From: Laspinema olomoucense D3b
Lineage (GTDB): Bacteria; Cyanobacteriota; Cyanobacteriia; Cyanobacteriales; Laspinemataceae
Reading direction: 5' to 3'
Assembly: GCF_025370785.1 (NCBI RefSeq)
Contig: NZ_JAMXFA010000015.1
Coordinates: forward strand, 1-64,000
Length of the DNA stretch: 64,000 nucleotides
Of this stretch, positions 5,829 to 9,571 are shown one piece after another. The translations under genes and the position numbers were made by a program. The notes under the pieces were generated by a model. That model ran no database searches and was not told where the DNA came from. It was given only the letters and a program-made list of their open reading frames with translations. Within the stretch, counting starts at the first letter, position 1, and every line of letters starts with the position of its first letter.

Positions 5829-6512
5829 ATGAGTTTGTGGCTACTTTTAAATGGGTTGTTGTTAATCGCTGCCTACTTATTTGGTTCATTCCCTACAGGT
5901 TATATTGTGGCTCGACAGTTGAAGGGAATTGATATTCGGCAAGAAGGGTCGGGTTCCACGGGGGCGACTAATGTCCTGAGAACTGTGGGGAAAGGACCTG
6001 CTTTGGTGGTGTTTCTGGTGGATATTTTAAAAGGTATAGCAGCGATCGTTTTGGTCCGTTTTGCTTACGCTTTGCCACAGTTCCAGGAACTTGCTGCAAA
6101 TATCGGACCCGCTGCCAGTTGGTTGTCTTGGATGGTCATCCTCGCTGGATTAGGTGCACTACTCGGTCATACCAAATCAGTCTGGATTAATTTTAAAGGT
6201 GGAAAGGCGGTTGCCACCAGTTTGGGGGTGCTATTTGCCCTCAATTGGCCGATCGCCCTCGCCGGGTTTGGAGTCTTTGGAATTGTCCTCGCCTTTACCC
6301 GCATTGTTTCCCTCAGTTCGATGTTAGCCGCCCTTGCCCTACCGGGGATCATGTTTGTAATGCATCAACCCCTGTCCTATCAAATTTTTATGTTAGCCGC
6401 TTCGATGTATGTCATCTGGCTACACCGCAGCAATATCAATCGCCTGCTTTCTGGCACTGAACCCCGCATCGGCCAAAAGTTACCCCAACCCTCGGAAAGT
6501 ATTCCCTCTTAG
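5829..6512 (+). CDS. plsY: Glycerol-3-phosphate acyltransferase PlsY
   Basis: PlsY transfers an acyl group from acyl-phosphate to glycerol-3-phosphate at the membrane, the first step of phosphatidic acid synthesis. The 227-residue protein has several membrane helices and the three family motifs: GSFPTGYIVAR near residue 19, GSGSTGATNVLRTVGK near 42, and GHTKSVWINFKGGKAVAT near 115. Length is normal. It closes the lipid-linked block that starts with the MlaE permease, about 80 bases after the DUF3086 gene. Confidence 0.93.
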   Translation: MSLWLLLNGLLLIAAYLFGSFPTGYIVARQLKGIDIRQEGSGSTGATNVLRTVGKGPALVVFLVDILKGIAAIVLVRFAYALPQFQELAANIGPAASWLSWMVILAGLGALLGHTKSVWINFKGGKAVATSLGVLFALNWPIALAGFGVFGIVLAFTRIVSLSSMLAALALPGIMFVMHQPLSYQIFMLAASMYVIWLHRSNINRLLSGTEPRIGQKLPQPSESIPS

Positions 6513-6670: not shown

Positions 6671-7381
6671 TTAAGAATCGGGTCTCTCAAAGTAGCTTTT
6701 GATGATTTCTTGTAACAACTCCTCGGGAACCACTCTTTTTTTTAGGGCAGCATCTTTAATCCTTTTGATATCGGAGCCTTGCATTTTAATGGGTGAAAAC
6801 TGTTCAGGAAATGCCCAAGGGCAAGTCTGGCATTCTAGTTGACAGCCTCGGCAAGCGGTACTCTTAAAATTATTGCACTCTTTGCATAAGGGTTGCCAAT
6901 TTTCCTCCTGGTTGCCACCCCCTCTCAGGCGCGGAATTTTATGGTCCTGGTCGAGCCTAACCAAGGGTTTACCTCTACCACAAACTGCACAAGAATGAGA
7001 ATATTTATTCAATATTTCTTTCCAAAGAATGTCTCCGAGCTTAATTCTTTGGATCCGCTTAGGATTTATTTCTAAACTAACAAGCTGATATCGGGTGTAA
7101 ACTCCATTTCCCTGCTTTTCTATGCCAATGATTCCTTCTTCTCCCTGCAATTCTCGGATTCGTCGAGAGACATCTTTATAAGGTTCGCTGCTCTCTCTAA
7201 AGCGATCAATGACTTGACGGATCTCGGATAAAAAAACAACGGGACCGGGCAGGGTATGACCTGGAGGCCATAAAGTTTCGAGAATTAATTTATAATAATT
7301 TCTATTGGCTTGGCCTGACGTTACAAAAGAGGCACAAACATTGGCAATCCACTCCTCTCGATTGACTTCACTTTTACTCAT
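6671..7381 (-). CDS. HNH-type restriction endonuclease (predicted)
   Basis: The 236-residue protein carries a zinc-bound HNH motif in its second half: SCAVCGRGK, RLDQDHKIPRLRGGG, then ENWQPLCKECNNFKS, followed by more cysteines (CRGCQLECQTC). The N-terminal 110 residues form a separate, probably DNA-reading part. The gene follows the XRE regulator with an ATGA overlap, and a C5-cytosine methyltransferase is divergent 140 bases away. This arrangement is typical of a type II restriction-modification system, so restriction activity is inferred from context. The recognition sequence cannot be deduced. Confidence 0.75.
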   Translation of the reverse strand: MSKSEVNREEWIANVCASFVTSGQANRNYYKLILETLWPPGHTLPGPVVFLSEIRQVIDRFRESSEPYKDVSRRIRELQGEEGIIGIEKQGNGVYTRYQLVSLEINPKRIQRIKLGDILWKEILNKYSHSCAVCGRGKPLVRLDQDHKIPRLRGGGNQEENWQPLCKECNNFKSTACRGCQLECQTCPWAFPEQFSPIKMQGSDIKRIKDAALKKRVVPEELLQEIIKSYFERPDS

Positions 7382-7626
7382 GAGTGCTGCTCATTTCCTC
7401 GTAAAAGCCATTCTGGAGTAACTTCTAACAAACGGGCGATCGCATCTAGCTCAAAATCTTTGACTCCACGCTTTTGCCGCTCAATTTCAGAAATATCAGA
7501 CTGATCTAAATTAATATTAAAATCTACAGAGAGTGCAGCCGCTAATTCACTTTGATCCCATCCAAGCTTTTCACGCCCTTGTCTAATTCTGGGGCCACTA
7601 ATATTGGCCTTGGTCATTATTTGCAT
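7378..7626 (-). CDS. XRE-family helix-turn-helix regulator, likely R-M controller (C protein)
   Basis: A small (82 residues, or 79 from the second ATG) single-domain HTH protein: GPRIRQGREKLGWDQSELAA, LDQSDISEIERQKRGVKDFE and ARLLEVTPEWLL fit the five-helix lambda-repressor fold. It overlaps the nuclease gene start (ATGA), so both are translated together. Controller proteins of R-M systems delay nuclease expression by binding palindromic operators in their own promoter. A candidate operator, TAGACGATTTTCGTCTA, lies about 50 bases upstream in the divergent intergenic region. Confidence 0.8.
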   Translation of the reverse strand: MQIMTKANISGPRIRQGREKLGWDQSELAAALSVDFNINLDQSDISEIERQKRGVKDFELDAIARLLEVTPEWLLRGNEQHS

Positions 7627-7764: not shown

Positions 7765-8661
7765 ATGCGAGTAGCATCTTTTTTCGCGGGAATTGGAGGA
7801 TTTGATCTAGGATTTGAACGAGCCGGAATGCAGGTTATATTTCAATGTGAAATTGATAAATTTTGTCAAGCAATATTAAAACGTCATTGGCCTAACGTAC
7901 CGATTTATGAAGACATCACAACCCTCACCCCTGCAACTATCCCTCAATCTGACTTATGGTGTGCCGGATGGCCCTGCCAAGACCTCAGTAACGCCAACAC
8001 AGAAAGAAAAGGACTCGGGGGAGAACGAAGCGGACTCTTCTATAAATTTATGGAACTTGTTGGAGAAGTTCACCCGCCGTGGTTGGTCTTGGAAAATGTG
8101 CCAGGGTTGCTCTGTGCAGAGCAAGGAACCGCGCTTGAGGCAGTTATCAACACGCTGGAAACGCACGGGTATTTGGGGGGATGGCTATCGTGTAACGCTC
8201 TCCATTCGGGCTTACCTCACGACCGAGATCGCGTCTTCTTTATCGCCAGTTTTAGATCACCACGTGCCTATAAAATCTTTACTGACAGCAGCGAATTGTC
8301 TGGGAATTCTCCGCCGGGAAAATCGAGGGAAACGGAAACTCGATCCAGTATTTGTGAAAGCACTTTCAGAAACAATCCGCTTGTGGTACAACGTCGCGGA
8401 GGCTTCGGGTACACCGTGGCGAGAAATATCTGCCCCACGTTACGCGCCCAAACTGGAAAACATCAAGGAGGTCATTCAGACCGACCAATACTCTGTGGCG
8501 AGAAACTTGACCTGGACCGAATGGGAAAGGTTGATGGGGTTTCCCCCAGGATGGACAGTCGTCGAGGGAGAGTCCTTGGTAATGCAGTCATCCCCCCGAT
8601 CGCCGAATGGATTGGGAGAAAAATCTTAGAAGTTGAAATGTCTAGTTCGGGGATTCACTAG
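7765..8661 (+). CDS. C5-cytosine DNA methyltransferase of a type II R-M system
   Basis: The 298-residue enzyme shows the C5-methyltransferase motif order: SAM-binding FFAGIGGFDLGFE (residues 6-18), catalytic WCAGWPCQDLS with the Pro-Cys dipeptide (66-75), LVLENVPGL (107-115), HDRDRVFFIA (152-161) and the C-terminal RGRVLGNAVIPPIAEWIG (268-284). It would methylate cytosine in the target and protect DNA from the divergent HNH nuclease. The protein is compact and its target-recognition region (about 165-250) is short. A second, +1-shifted frame of 240 codons lies inside it (7907-8629) and has methyltransferase-like motifs of its own. Confidence 0.88.
   Translation: MRVASFFAGIGGFDLGFERAGMQVIFQCEIDKFCQAILKRHWPNVPIYEDITTLTPATIPQSDLWCAGWPCQDLSNANTERKGLGGERSGLFYKFMELVGEVHPPWLVLENVPGLLCAEQGTALEAVINTLETHGYLGGWLSCNALHSGLPHDRDRVFFIASFRSPRAYKIFTDSSELSGNSPPGKSRETETRSSICESTFRNNPLVVQRRGGFGYTVARNICPTLRAQTGKHQGGHSDRPILCGEKLDLDRMGKVDGVSPRMDSRRGRVLGNAVIPPIAEWIGRKILEVEMSSSGIH
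7907..8629 (+). CDS. Overlapping +1-frame reading frame inside the methyltransferase gene
   Basis: A 240-codon frame starts at ATG 7907 and runs entirely inside the C5-methyltransferase gene, same strand, shifted by one base. It is not random in content: residues 201-217 read LTWTEWERLMGFPPGWT, which matches the conserved LTPxECERLxGFPxGWT block near the C-terminus of many C5-methyltransferases. Residues 127-142 (TAANCLGILRRENRGK) resemble a segment I remember from phage proteins annotated beside dcm genes. The N-terminal half (PAKTS, ADSS, CQGCSV) is the shifted translation of the catalytic motif region. Either both frames are translated, or the gene mixes two frames after old frameshifts. 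No clear ribosome binding site precedes the inner ATG. Confidence 0.4.
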   Translation: MKTSQPSPLQLSLNLTYGVPDGPAKTSVTPTQKEKDSGENEADSSINLWNLLEKFTRRGWSWKMCQGCSVQSKEPRLRQLSTRWKRTGIWGDGYRVTLSIRAYLTTEIASSLSPVLDHHVPIKSLLTAANCLGILRRENRGKRKLDPVFVKALSETIRLWYNVAEASGTPWREISAPRYAPKLENIKEVIQTDQYSVARNLTWTEWERLMGFPPGWTVVEGESLVMQSSPRSPNGLGEKS

Positions 8662-8761: not shown

Positions 8762-9571
8762 TTAGCTTCCCAGTTGGCGCGATCGCTCGGTTGCCGCTTG
8801 TACGGCTTCGATGCAGGCGGACCGAAATCCGGCTTTTTCTAATTGCGCGACTCCGGCGATGGTGGTGCCTCCGGGACTGGTTACCCGGTCTTTCAGTTCT
8901 GCCGGGTGTAGTTGGGTTTCTTGAATCAGTGTGGCTGTTCCCAATACGGTTTGTAAGGCGAGTTGGGCGGCAATGGCGCGGGGTAGACCCGCACGAACGC
9001 CGCCATCTGTCAAGGCTTCGATAAAAATTGCCACATAAGCGGGTCCGGAACCAGAGAGGCCGGTGACTGCATCCATCAGGGACTCGGGAACCTGAACCAC
9101 ATCACCCACGGCTTGTAACACAGTTTTGGCGCGGTCGAGGTGTTCGGGTTGGACCTGAGTTCCCGGGGCGATCGCCGTGATTCCAGCGCCGACAGTAGCG
9201 GGGGTATTCGGCATGGAACGGACAATCGGTACGCCAGGAAAAGCTCGTTCTAATTTACTCAGGGGGACTCCGGCTAAAATAGATAGAATCACTGGCACTT
9301 GTCCATTCTGGCCGAGAGACGGTAAGGCAGTGGCGACGGACTCGAACACTTGGGGTTTGATGGCGAGGAGCAAGACTTCTGTCGCTGCCGCTACCTCAGA
9401 ATTGTCAGCAGTGACGCCGACGCCATATTGTTGCGCTAAAAACTCGCGACGCTGCTGCATGGGGTCGCTAATCAGAATTTCCCCAGGCTGATAAGCGGCA
9501 CGAGCAATCAGGCGGGATAGGAGCGCTTCTCCCATGACCCCGCCTCCAATAATTCCTAGTTTTACCAACAA
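8762..9571 (-). CDS. proC: Pyrroline-5-carboxylate reductase
   Basis: ProC reduces pyrroline-5-carboxylate to proline with NAD(P)H in the cytoplasm. The 269-residue protein has the Rossmann start LGIIGGGVMGEALLS, the middle VRSMPNTPATVGAG motif, the helix GLSGSGPAYVAIFIEAL and the signature DRVTSPGGTTIAG near the C-terminus. The start appears to be TTG (9569-9571), with no better ATG close by. It lies downstream of sepF on the same strand, about 80 bases apart, as in other cyanobacteria. Confidence 0.93.
   Translation of the reverse strand: MLVKLGIIGGGVMGEALLSRLIARAAYQPGEILISDPMQQRREFLAQQYGVGVTADNSEVAAATEVLLLAIKPQVFESVATALPSLGQNGQVPVILSILAGVPLSKLERAFPGVPIVRSMPNTPATVGAGITAIAPGTQVQPEHLDRAKTVLQAVGDVVQVPESLMDAVTGLSGSGPAYVAIFIEALTDGGVRAGLPRAIAAQLALQTVLGTATLIQETQLHPAELKDRVTSPGGTTIAGVAQLEKAGFRSACIEAVQAATERSRQLGS

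Follow-up and report, generated by a model that had tools for sequence, protein, structure and literature searches.

Two overlapping frames of one locus in Laspinema olomoucense D3b probably encode the two chains of a C5-cytosine DNA methyltransferase

In a window of 64,000 nucleotides from Laspinema olomoucense D3b (the whole stretch of DNA analysed), a locus was identified whose overlapping reading frames are likely to encode the two subunits of a C5-cytosine DNA methyltransferase, probably as part of a restriction-modification system with the adjacent HTH and HNH genes. The outer gene, alpha (7765-8661, forward strand, frame 0), carries motifs I-VIII and X and would provide for catalysis and AdoMet binding. 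The nested gene, beta (7907-8629, forward strand, +1 frame), lies wholly within alpha, probably starts from its own ATG at 7907 and would contribute motif IX together with some of the target-recognition region. As alpha is without motif IX and beta carries it, the pair should form one enzyme; by analogy with M.EcoHK31I, neither chain alone would methylate DNA and the two together would be active. Dual coding of the locus is well supported. Selection on both frames, the division of the motifs between them and the linkage of a nuclease gene were demonstrated at the level of sequence, from which we infer translation of beta, alpha-beta assembly, methylation, a target sequence and restriction. According to PMC3404938, the variable target-recognition region of C5 methyltransferases lies with motif IX in the small domain, and most of the other motifs lie in the large one.

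Alpha (298 aa) was assigned to PF00145 (E 1.5e-45), with a match covering just profile positions 1-168 of 324. The earlier note had described the outer frame as a complete C5-methyltransferase, a description that fails on this coverage and on the position of motif IX in the inner frame. Residues 2-172 matched M.HhaI in a profile search, and the AlphaFold model of alpha (mean pLDDT 60.6, residues 173-272 low) gave a fold match to HaeIII/HhaI over about 165 columns. P70 C71 Q72, E110 N111 V112 and G272 N273 A274 were all invariant in alignment A2. The catalytic PCQ is encoded at 7972-7980 on the forward strand and is taken by us to be motif IV. Motif X, GNAVIPPIAEWIG, lies at 8578-8616 (forward strand) in the alpha frame, and no such motif was present in the beta alignment A1. 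Motifs I, IV (PCQ), VI (ENV), VIII and X were thus all found in the main chain, as expected of a C5-cytosine DNA methyltransferase. The motif IX pattern was found in frames 0, +1 and +2 of 0, 33 and 0, respectively, of 33 distinct intact homologues, and alpha does not have the single-chain arrangement in which IX stands together with I-VIII and X. At E 0.001 the alpha protein matched 11 places in the source genome, this locus among them.

Both open reading frames were as claimed in the earlier note, the inner one having 240 codons and an ATG start, and both inner motifs quoted there were located in the +1 frame. The probable beta start (ATG, 7907-7909, forward strand) was shared by L069, L070 and 24 of 25 cyanobacterial genes, and third-position divergence dropped after it. 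It was missing in L047, L060 and the four distant copies L213, L215, L221 and L222. No Shine-Dalgarno-like sequence was visible ahead of this ATG in the window. The middle of beta (SLSPVLD...TAANCLGILRRENRGKRKL..., 8237-8377, forward strand) is related to a +1 segment nested in unsplit phage enzymes. Motif IX, LTWTEWERLMGFPPGWT (8507-8557, forward strand), was near-invariant in alignment A1. Inner proteins matched the C-terminal part of PF00145 in 23 of 23 scanned, although weakly (E up to 1, best 5.1e-4); the window's own beta gave E 0.0086 and 16 bits, under the 22-bit curated cut-off. No family covering beta as a whole was found in Pfam, PHROGs or NCBIfam. Two PHROGs labelled DNA methyltransferase, phrog_16143 and phrog_1008, were matched by related +1 peptides. 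With the inner protein as query no match was obtained in phages (E 1e-5) or plasmids (E 1e-2), nor in viral contigs with a single sequence; homologues were therefore reached via the outer protein and alignments. A beta profile searched against the PDB gave weak matches to unrelated proteins alone (E 0.61 and above), and the AlphaFold prediction of beta (mean pLDDT 40.1) gave no usable model of its fold.

A search of genome contigs yielded 27 relatives. The window and these relatives, without L063 (indel) and L064-L066 (partial), made up a 24-gene permutation set; a 22-gene divergence table omitted L060 and L062 from it, and alignments A1 (beta) and A2 (alpha) used 23 of the 24 genes, L044 being left out. 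A wider set of 33 distinct intact alpha homologues, the window counted, was drawn from 35 genes, two being identical to others. It comprised cyanobacteria at 71-98% alpha identity, one Pseudomonadota sequence at 57%, two viral contigs at 58%, a Bryobacterales copy without its first 53 residues at 53%, and four distant copies from cyanobacterial genomes at 39-43%. Left outside were L063/L209/L220, the partial or deleted copies L064-L066, L068, L071, L208, L210-L212, L214 and L216-L218, the remote L219, and L009, L192, L195-L199, L202 and L204-L207, presumed repeats of genomes already taken (equal identities). Copies L064-L066, L071, L210-L212, L214 and L216-L218 were truncated or internally deleted and had lost both frames together. 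In L063 (3001-3869; also L209, L220), from Coleofasciculaceae, an indel near outer residue 138 joins alpha to the beta frame; the contig title gives a coverage of about 2.7, so the join is probably an assembly error. Of 388 genomes sampled from the order, 29 (own counted) matched the beta profile at E 0.001, some of them only as remnants, and 2 of 386 genomes (own counted) in a phylum-wide sample matched the window's beta.

Over residues 121-262 the +1 frame was stop-free in all 33 homologues, and the +2 frame contained 4-15 stops. The earlier note had allowed that the inner frame might be a real overprinted gene and had named inner stops in outer-gene homologues as evidence against it; none was found over these residues, which upholds the suggestion. 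Synonymous codons were permuted so that neither the outer protein nor its codon usage changed. A +1 run at least as long as the real one arose in 0-9 of 2000 trials per gene across the 24 genes (window gene, 1/2000), and the motif IX pattern appeared in +1 in 4/2000 permutations of the window gene. Over residues 121-262, +1 identity of the window to L060, L062, L069 and L070 was 0.59-0.61, with alpha identity of 0.51-0.54, against 0.24-0.26 in the permutation null (z 10.3-11.3, 0/1000). For L213, L215 and L221 it was 0.26-0.28 against 0.14-0.15 (z 4.5-5.7, 0/1000). The +1 signal over residues 47-120 was weaker (z 3.4-4.5 for the first four; 1.4-2.0 for the last three, two of them not significant). 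The +2 frame was also above its null over 121-262 (z 6.2-7.4 for the first four) with lower identity, 0.39-0.44, as expected where two overlapping frames are both constrained.

Raw outer third-position divergence among the 22 genes was 0.46-0.49 over residues 1-40 and 0.04-0.20 over 121-258. Over the latter stretch changes instead fell on the first positions of outer codons, the third positions of inner ones, reaching 0.51 over residues 181-198; there, inner residues differed in 0.13 of comparisons and outer residues in 0.53. Residues 199-258 were conserved in both frames, and 181-198 in beta alone. In 8-codon windows across 25 genes, third-position divergence was 0.38-0.56 to codon 48, 0.16-0.30 over 49-72, 0.37-0.47 again over 73-96 and 113-120, and 0.00-0.29 over 121-272; the last three windows gave 0.49, 0.24 and 0.62. 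Constraint on beta thus begins at the ATG, is patchy early, strong over about codons 121-272 and weak at the end of beta.

Viral contigs were scanned for DNA coding LMGxPxGWT (set 1; at least 120 loci, 121 matches). Among the matches listed, 102 of 121 were in +1 of a PCQ ORF, 2 in the frame of PCQ and 17 in neither; as viral and plasmid collections are non-random samples, these and the shares below are not frequencies in nature. The first version of the motif classifier was too strict (62/121) and was widened to give the 102. In all 102 the open beta frame extended through PCQ and covered at least 100 codons ahead of the match, and the alpha frame had a later motif X-like site and was without a canonical motif IX. 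The first beta start was an ATG exactly 4 nt past an alpha-frame ATG, GTG or TTG in 42/102, and a Shine-Dalgarno-like 5-mer preceded the first beta ATG in 39/92 (background 0.093). Codon-position divergence in set 1 was dropped as evidence, being near saturation in the target-recognition zone. In four viral loci among the 17 (L092, L093, L094 and L104), alpha closes soon after motif VIII and motifs IX and X are both in the +1 ORF; others among the 17 were cut or had an altered PCQ. The earlier note would have doubted an inner protein without homologues outside shifted translations. Motif IX is standard in frame in other C5 methyltransferases, and in these four loci beta runs beyond the shortened alpha, which goes part of the way; no beta gene wholly free of alpha overlap was found. 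Viral locus L184 has the catalytic motifs and LMGWPIGWT in one frame, without motif X, and in L081 a beta-like start runs into an alpha-like end; in both, frames could have been exchanged or fused, through sequence errors or natural frame exchange.

Loci were also chosen by GGFPCQD alone (104 examined of at least 120 stretches). Motif IX was solely in +1, with an open run of at least 100 codons, in 50, in the alpha frame in 11 and solely in +2 in none; 12 were cut and 31 undecided. Nine of these 31 had a looser motif IX in +1, as had several more by eye; in another, L395, motif IX looks canonical in the alpha frame and the longest +1 run is 44 codons. Named examples of the split layout are Mycobacterium phage Aubs gp70, phage C72C1, Synechococcus phage S-H1, Sulfitobacter phage phiGT1 and the Leptolyngbya boryana plasmid pLBA. 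Their feature tables annotate alpha and no overlapping beta (the plasmid table is incomplete by its own description). Plasmid matches L351 and L352 have motif IX in their own frame. Among the titles and abstracts listed in searches of the open-licence literature, none described a widespread nested motif IX gene or its breadth in viruses.

Under programmed +1 frameshifting, an alternative reading of the locus, an alpha-to-beta frame fusion (motifs I-VIII and IX) would be made beside full-length alpha carrying X. The long overlap offers room for a shift, and L063 (also L209/L220) and viral L184 read alpha into the motif IX frame unshifted, so such fusions can be encoded. The fusion would, however, be without motif X, constraint in the window's clade starts at the conserved ATG, in viral relatives beta often starts 4 nt past an alpha-frame start codon or after a Shine-Dalgarno-like 5-mer, as counted above, and the low-coverage L063 contig is a poor witness. 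We regard frameshifting as unlikely.

A nested +1 segment was also found in unsplit enzymes. In virus Rctr41k, motifs IX and X are in one frame and the +1 frame codes ...SLSQVLE...YYLSAKAAQGILSRAERRGKSLP..., which by eye resembles the middle of the window's beta. This peptide matched 295 phage records by tblastn, a similarity that partly follows from conserved alpha sequence. By coordinates, the match begins in +1 of the annotated gene in P1, Vibrio phage 382E49-1, Coprococcus phage NatCom_22372 and Enterobacter phage CobraSix; in P1 and 382E49-1 the placement was also borne out by translation. In P1 (L347, AF234173.1; dmt at locus 924-2840) a +1 ORF with ...YFLSSKACAGILRRGEKRRKSLP... is nested in dmt; motifs IX and X of Dmt stay in frame, and the record annotates dmt alone. 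A GILRRAEKRGK DNA pattern was scanned in viral contigs (set 2, at least 120 loci). Among the matches listed, 111 of 120 were in +1 of the PCQ ORF, none in the frame of PCQ, and 9 were without PCQ. The earlier note had likened TAANCLGILRRENRGK to small proteins beside phage dcm genes, and this related sequence instead lies inside the C5 methyltransferase genes themselves. Motif IX was in the alpha frame in 86 of the 111 and in +1 in none (with an alternative pattern 85 and 1, 25 unassigned). In the two blocks just before the motif, +1 residues differed in 0.24 and 0.31 of comparisons, alpha residues in 0.52 and 0.28 and third positions in 0.23-0.24; between PCQ and motif VIII the blocks gave 0.35-0.66 for third positions. 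Columns of the motif carry a bias, the loci having been selected on it. The nested segment suggests that the +1 frame may have been in use before the enzyme was split.

The same 86 of 111 loci speak for an alternative in which beta is truly overprinted but has another function, such as inhibition, regulation or anti-restriction, and alpha works alone, since a GILRR segment kept in enzymes with their own in-frame motif IX implies that at least this part has a role besides supplying it. Among the window's homologues, by contrast, motif IX was in alpha in 0/33 and in beta in 33/33, and a separate role with a self-sufficient alpha is quite improbable. With motif IX in the inner frame, alpha and beta most likely make up a single enzyme.

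Truncated and shifted copies in the family (L064-L066, L210-L212, L214, L216-L218) would fit a relict in which frameshifts left remains of both frames and one alone is in use; the joint retention of both frames among 33 intact homologues, with alpha identities as low as 39% and across cyanobacteria, Pseudomonadota, Bryobacterales and viral contigs, makes this very improbable. That codon bias of the outer gene keeps +1 open by chance has a negligible probability: single genes reach a similar run in a few permutations (at most 9/2000, L059), but the long run comes back in 33/33 homologues together with motif IX and the +1 protein sequence.

Divergent to alpha/beta, on the reverse strand, lie an HTH protein (HTH_3, PF01381, E 1.2e-8; 7378-7626), a candidate regulator, and an HNH nuclease (PF01844, E 5.5e-10; 6671-7381), a candidate restriction enzyme. 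By tblastn, HNH adjoined alpha in 19 and HTH in 16 of the 27 relatives, where L040 and L049 have contig ends too near alpha to judge and L064-L066 are partial copies. HNH is also present in L060 and L062, two distant relatives from bacteria. The intact loci L042, L047 and L055, with flanks present, gave neither an HNH nor an HTH match, and both were absent from the viral loci L067-L071 (0/5). A methyltransferase is thus linked to a nuclease gene, as in Type II restriction-modification, and alpha/beta, HTH and HNH most likely constitute such a system. It is flanked by a glycerol-3-phosphate acyltransferase gene (PF02660, window 5829-6512) and an ORF at 8762-9571, presumably proC-like; L200, of the same genus, had matches to both flanking neighbours.

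Beyond this locus we lean, by a little, towards the following view. A large share of phage C5 methyltransferases, with some bacterial ones, would be split, a nested, often unannotated +1 gene (in one group starting 4 nt past the alpha start) coding motif IX and some of the target-recognition region; unsplit ones, P1 Dmt included, would code a conserved +1 ...GILRRAEKRGK... segment, and the split may stem from such genes by frame exchange. Placing two enzyme parts on the same DNA is a difficult evolutionary step, as a change in one frame is restricted by the other. Should the viral samples reflect how common the layout is, many C5 methyltransferases now recorded as single genes would be incomplete and seem inactive if cloned on their own, and methylation predicted from them would fail for that simple reason. 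The family would also be a test bed for the origin of overlapping genes and a source of natural split enzymes for targeted DNA methylation.

The layout appears to be a variant of a known two-chain type. The small chain of M.EcoHK31I is reportedly encoded inside the large gene, the two genes overlapping in different frames. The likeness to this two-polypeptide enzyme (YGGCCR) was drawn from descriptions of motif layout: its large chain carries motifs I-VIII and X and its small chain motif IX (PMC3404938), the division found in alpha and beta. The same text places its target recognition domain in the large chain; in the window it is the beta frame that constrains the stretch following motif VIII, residues 181-198 most clearly. 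The two-polypeptide M.AquI is also split by nature and has motif IX on its small chain, but there together with X (PMC3404938), and X of the window is in alpha. The AquI arrangement was found neither in the window nor in its alignments; the viral loci L092, L093, L094 and L104, with IX and X in the +1 chain, are AquI-like. An out-of-frame HNH endonuclease in phage methylases (the ShiLan domain; PMC11855218) is likewise a second protein in another frame. It is described there as an inserted, patchily distributed homing element, whereas the second frame of the window spans the enzyme core, is present in 33/33 homologues and codes a methyltransferase motif.
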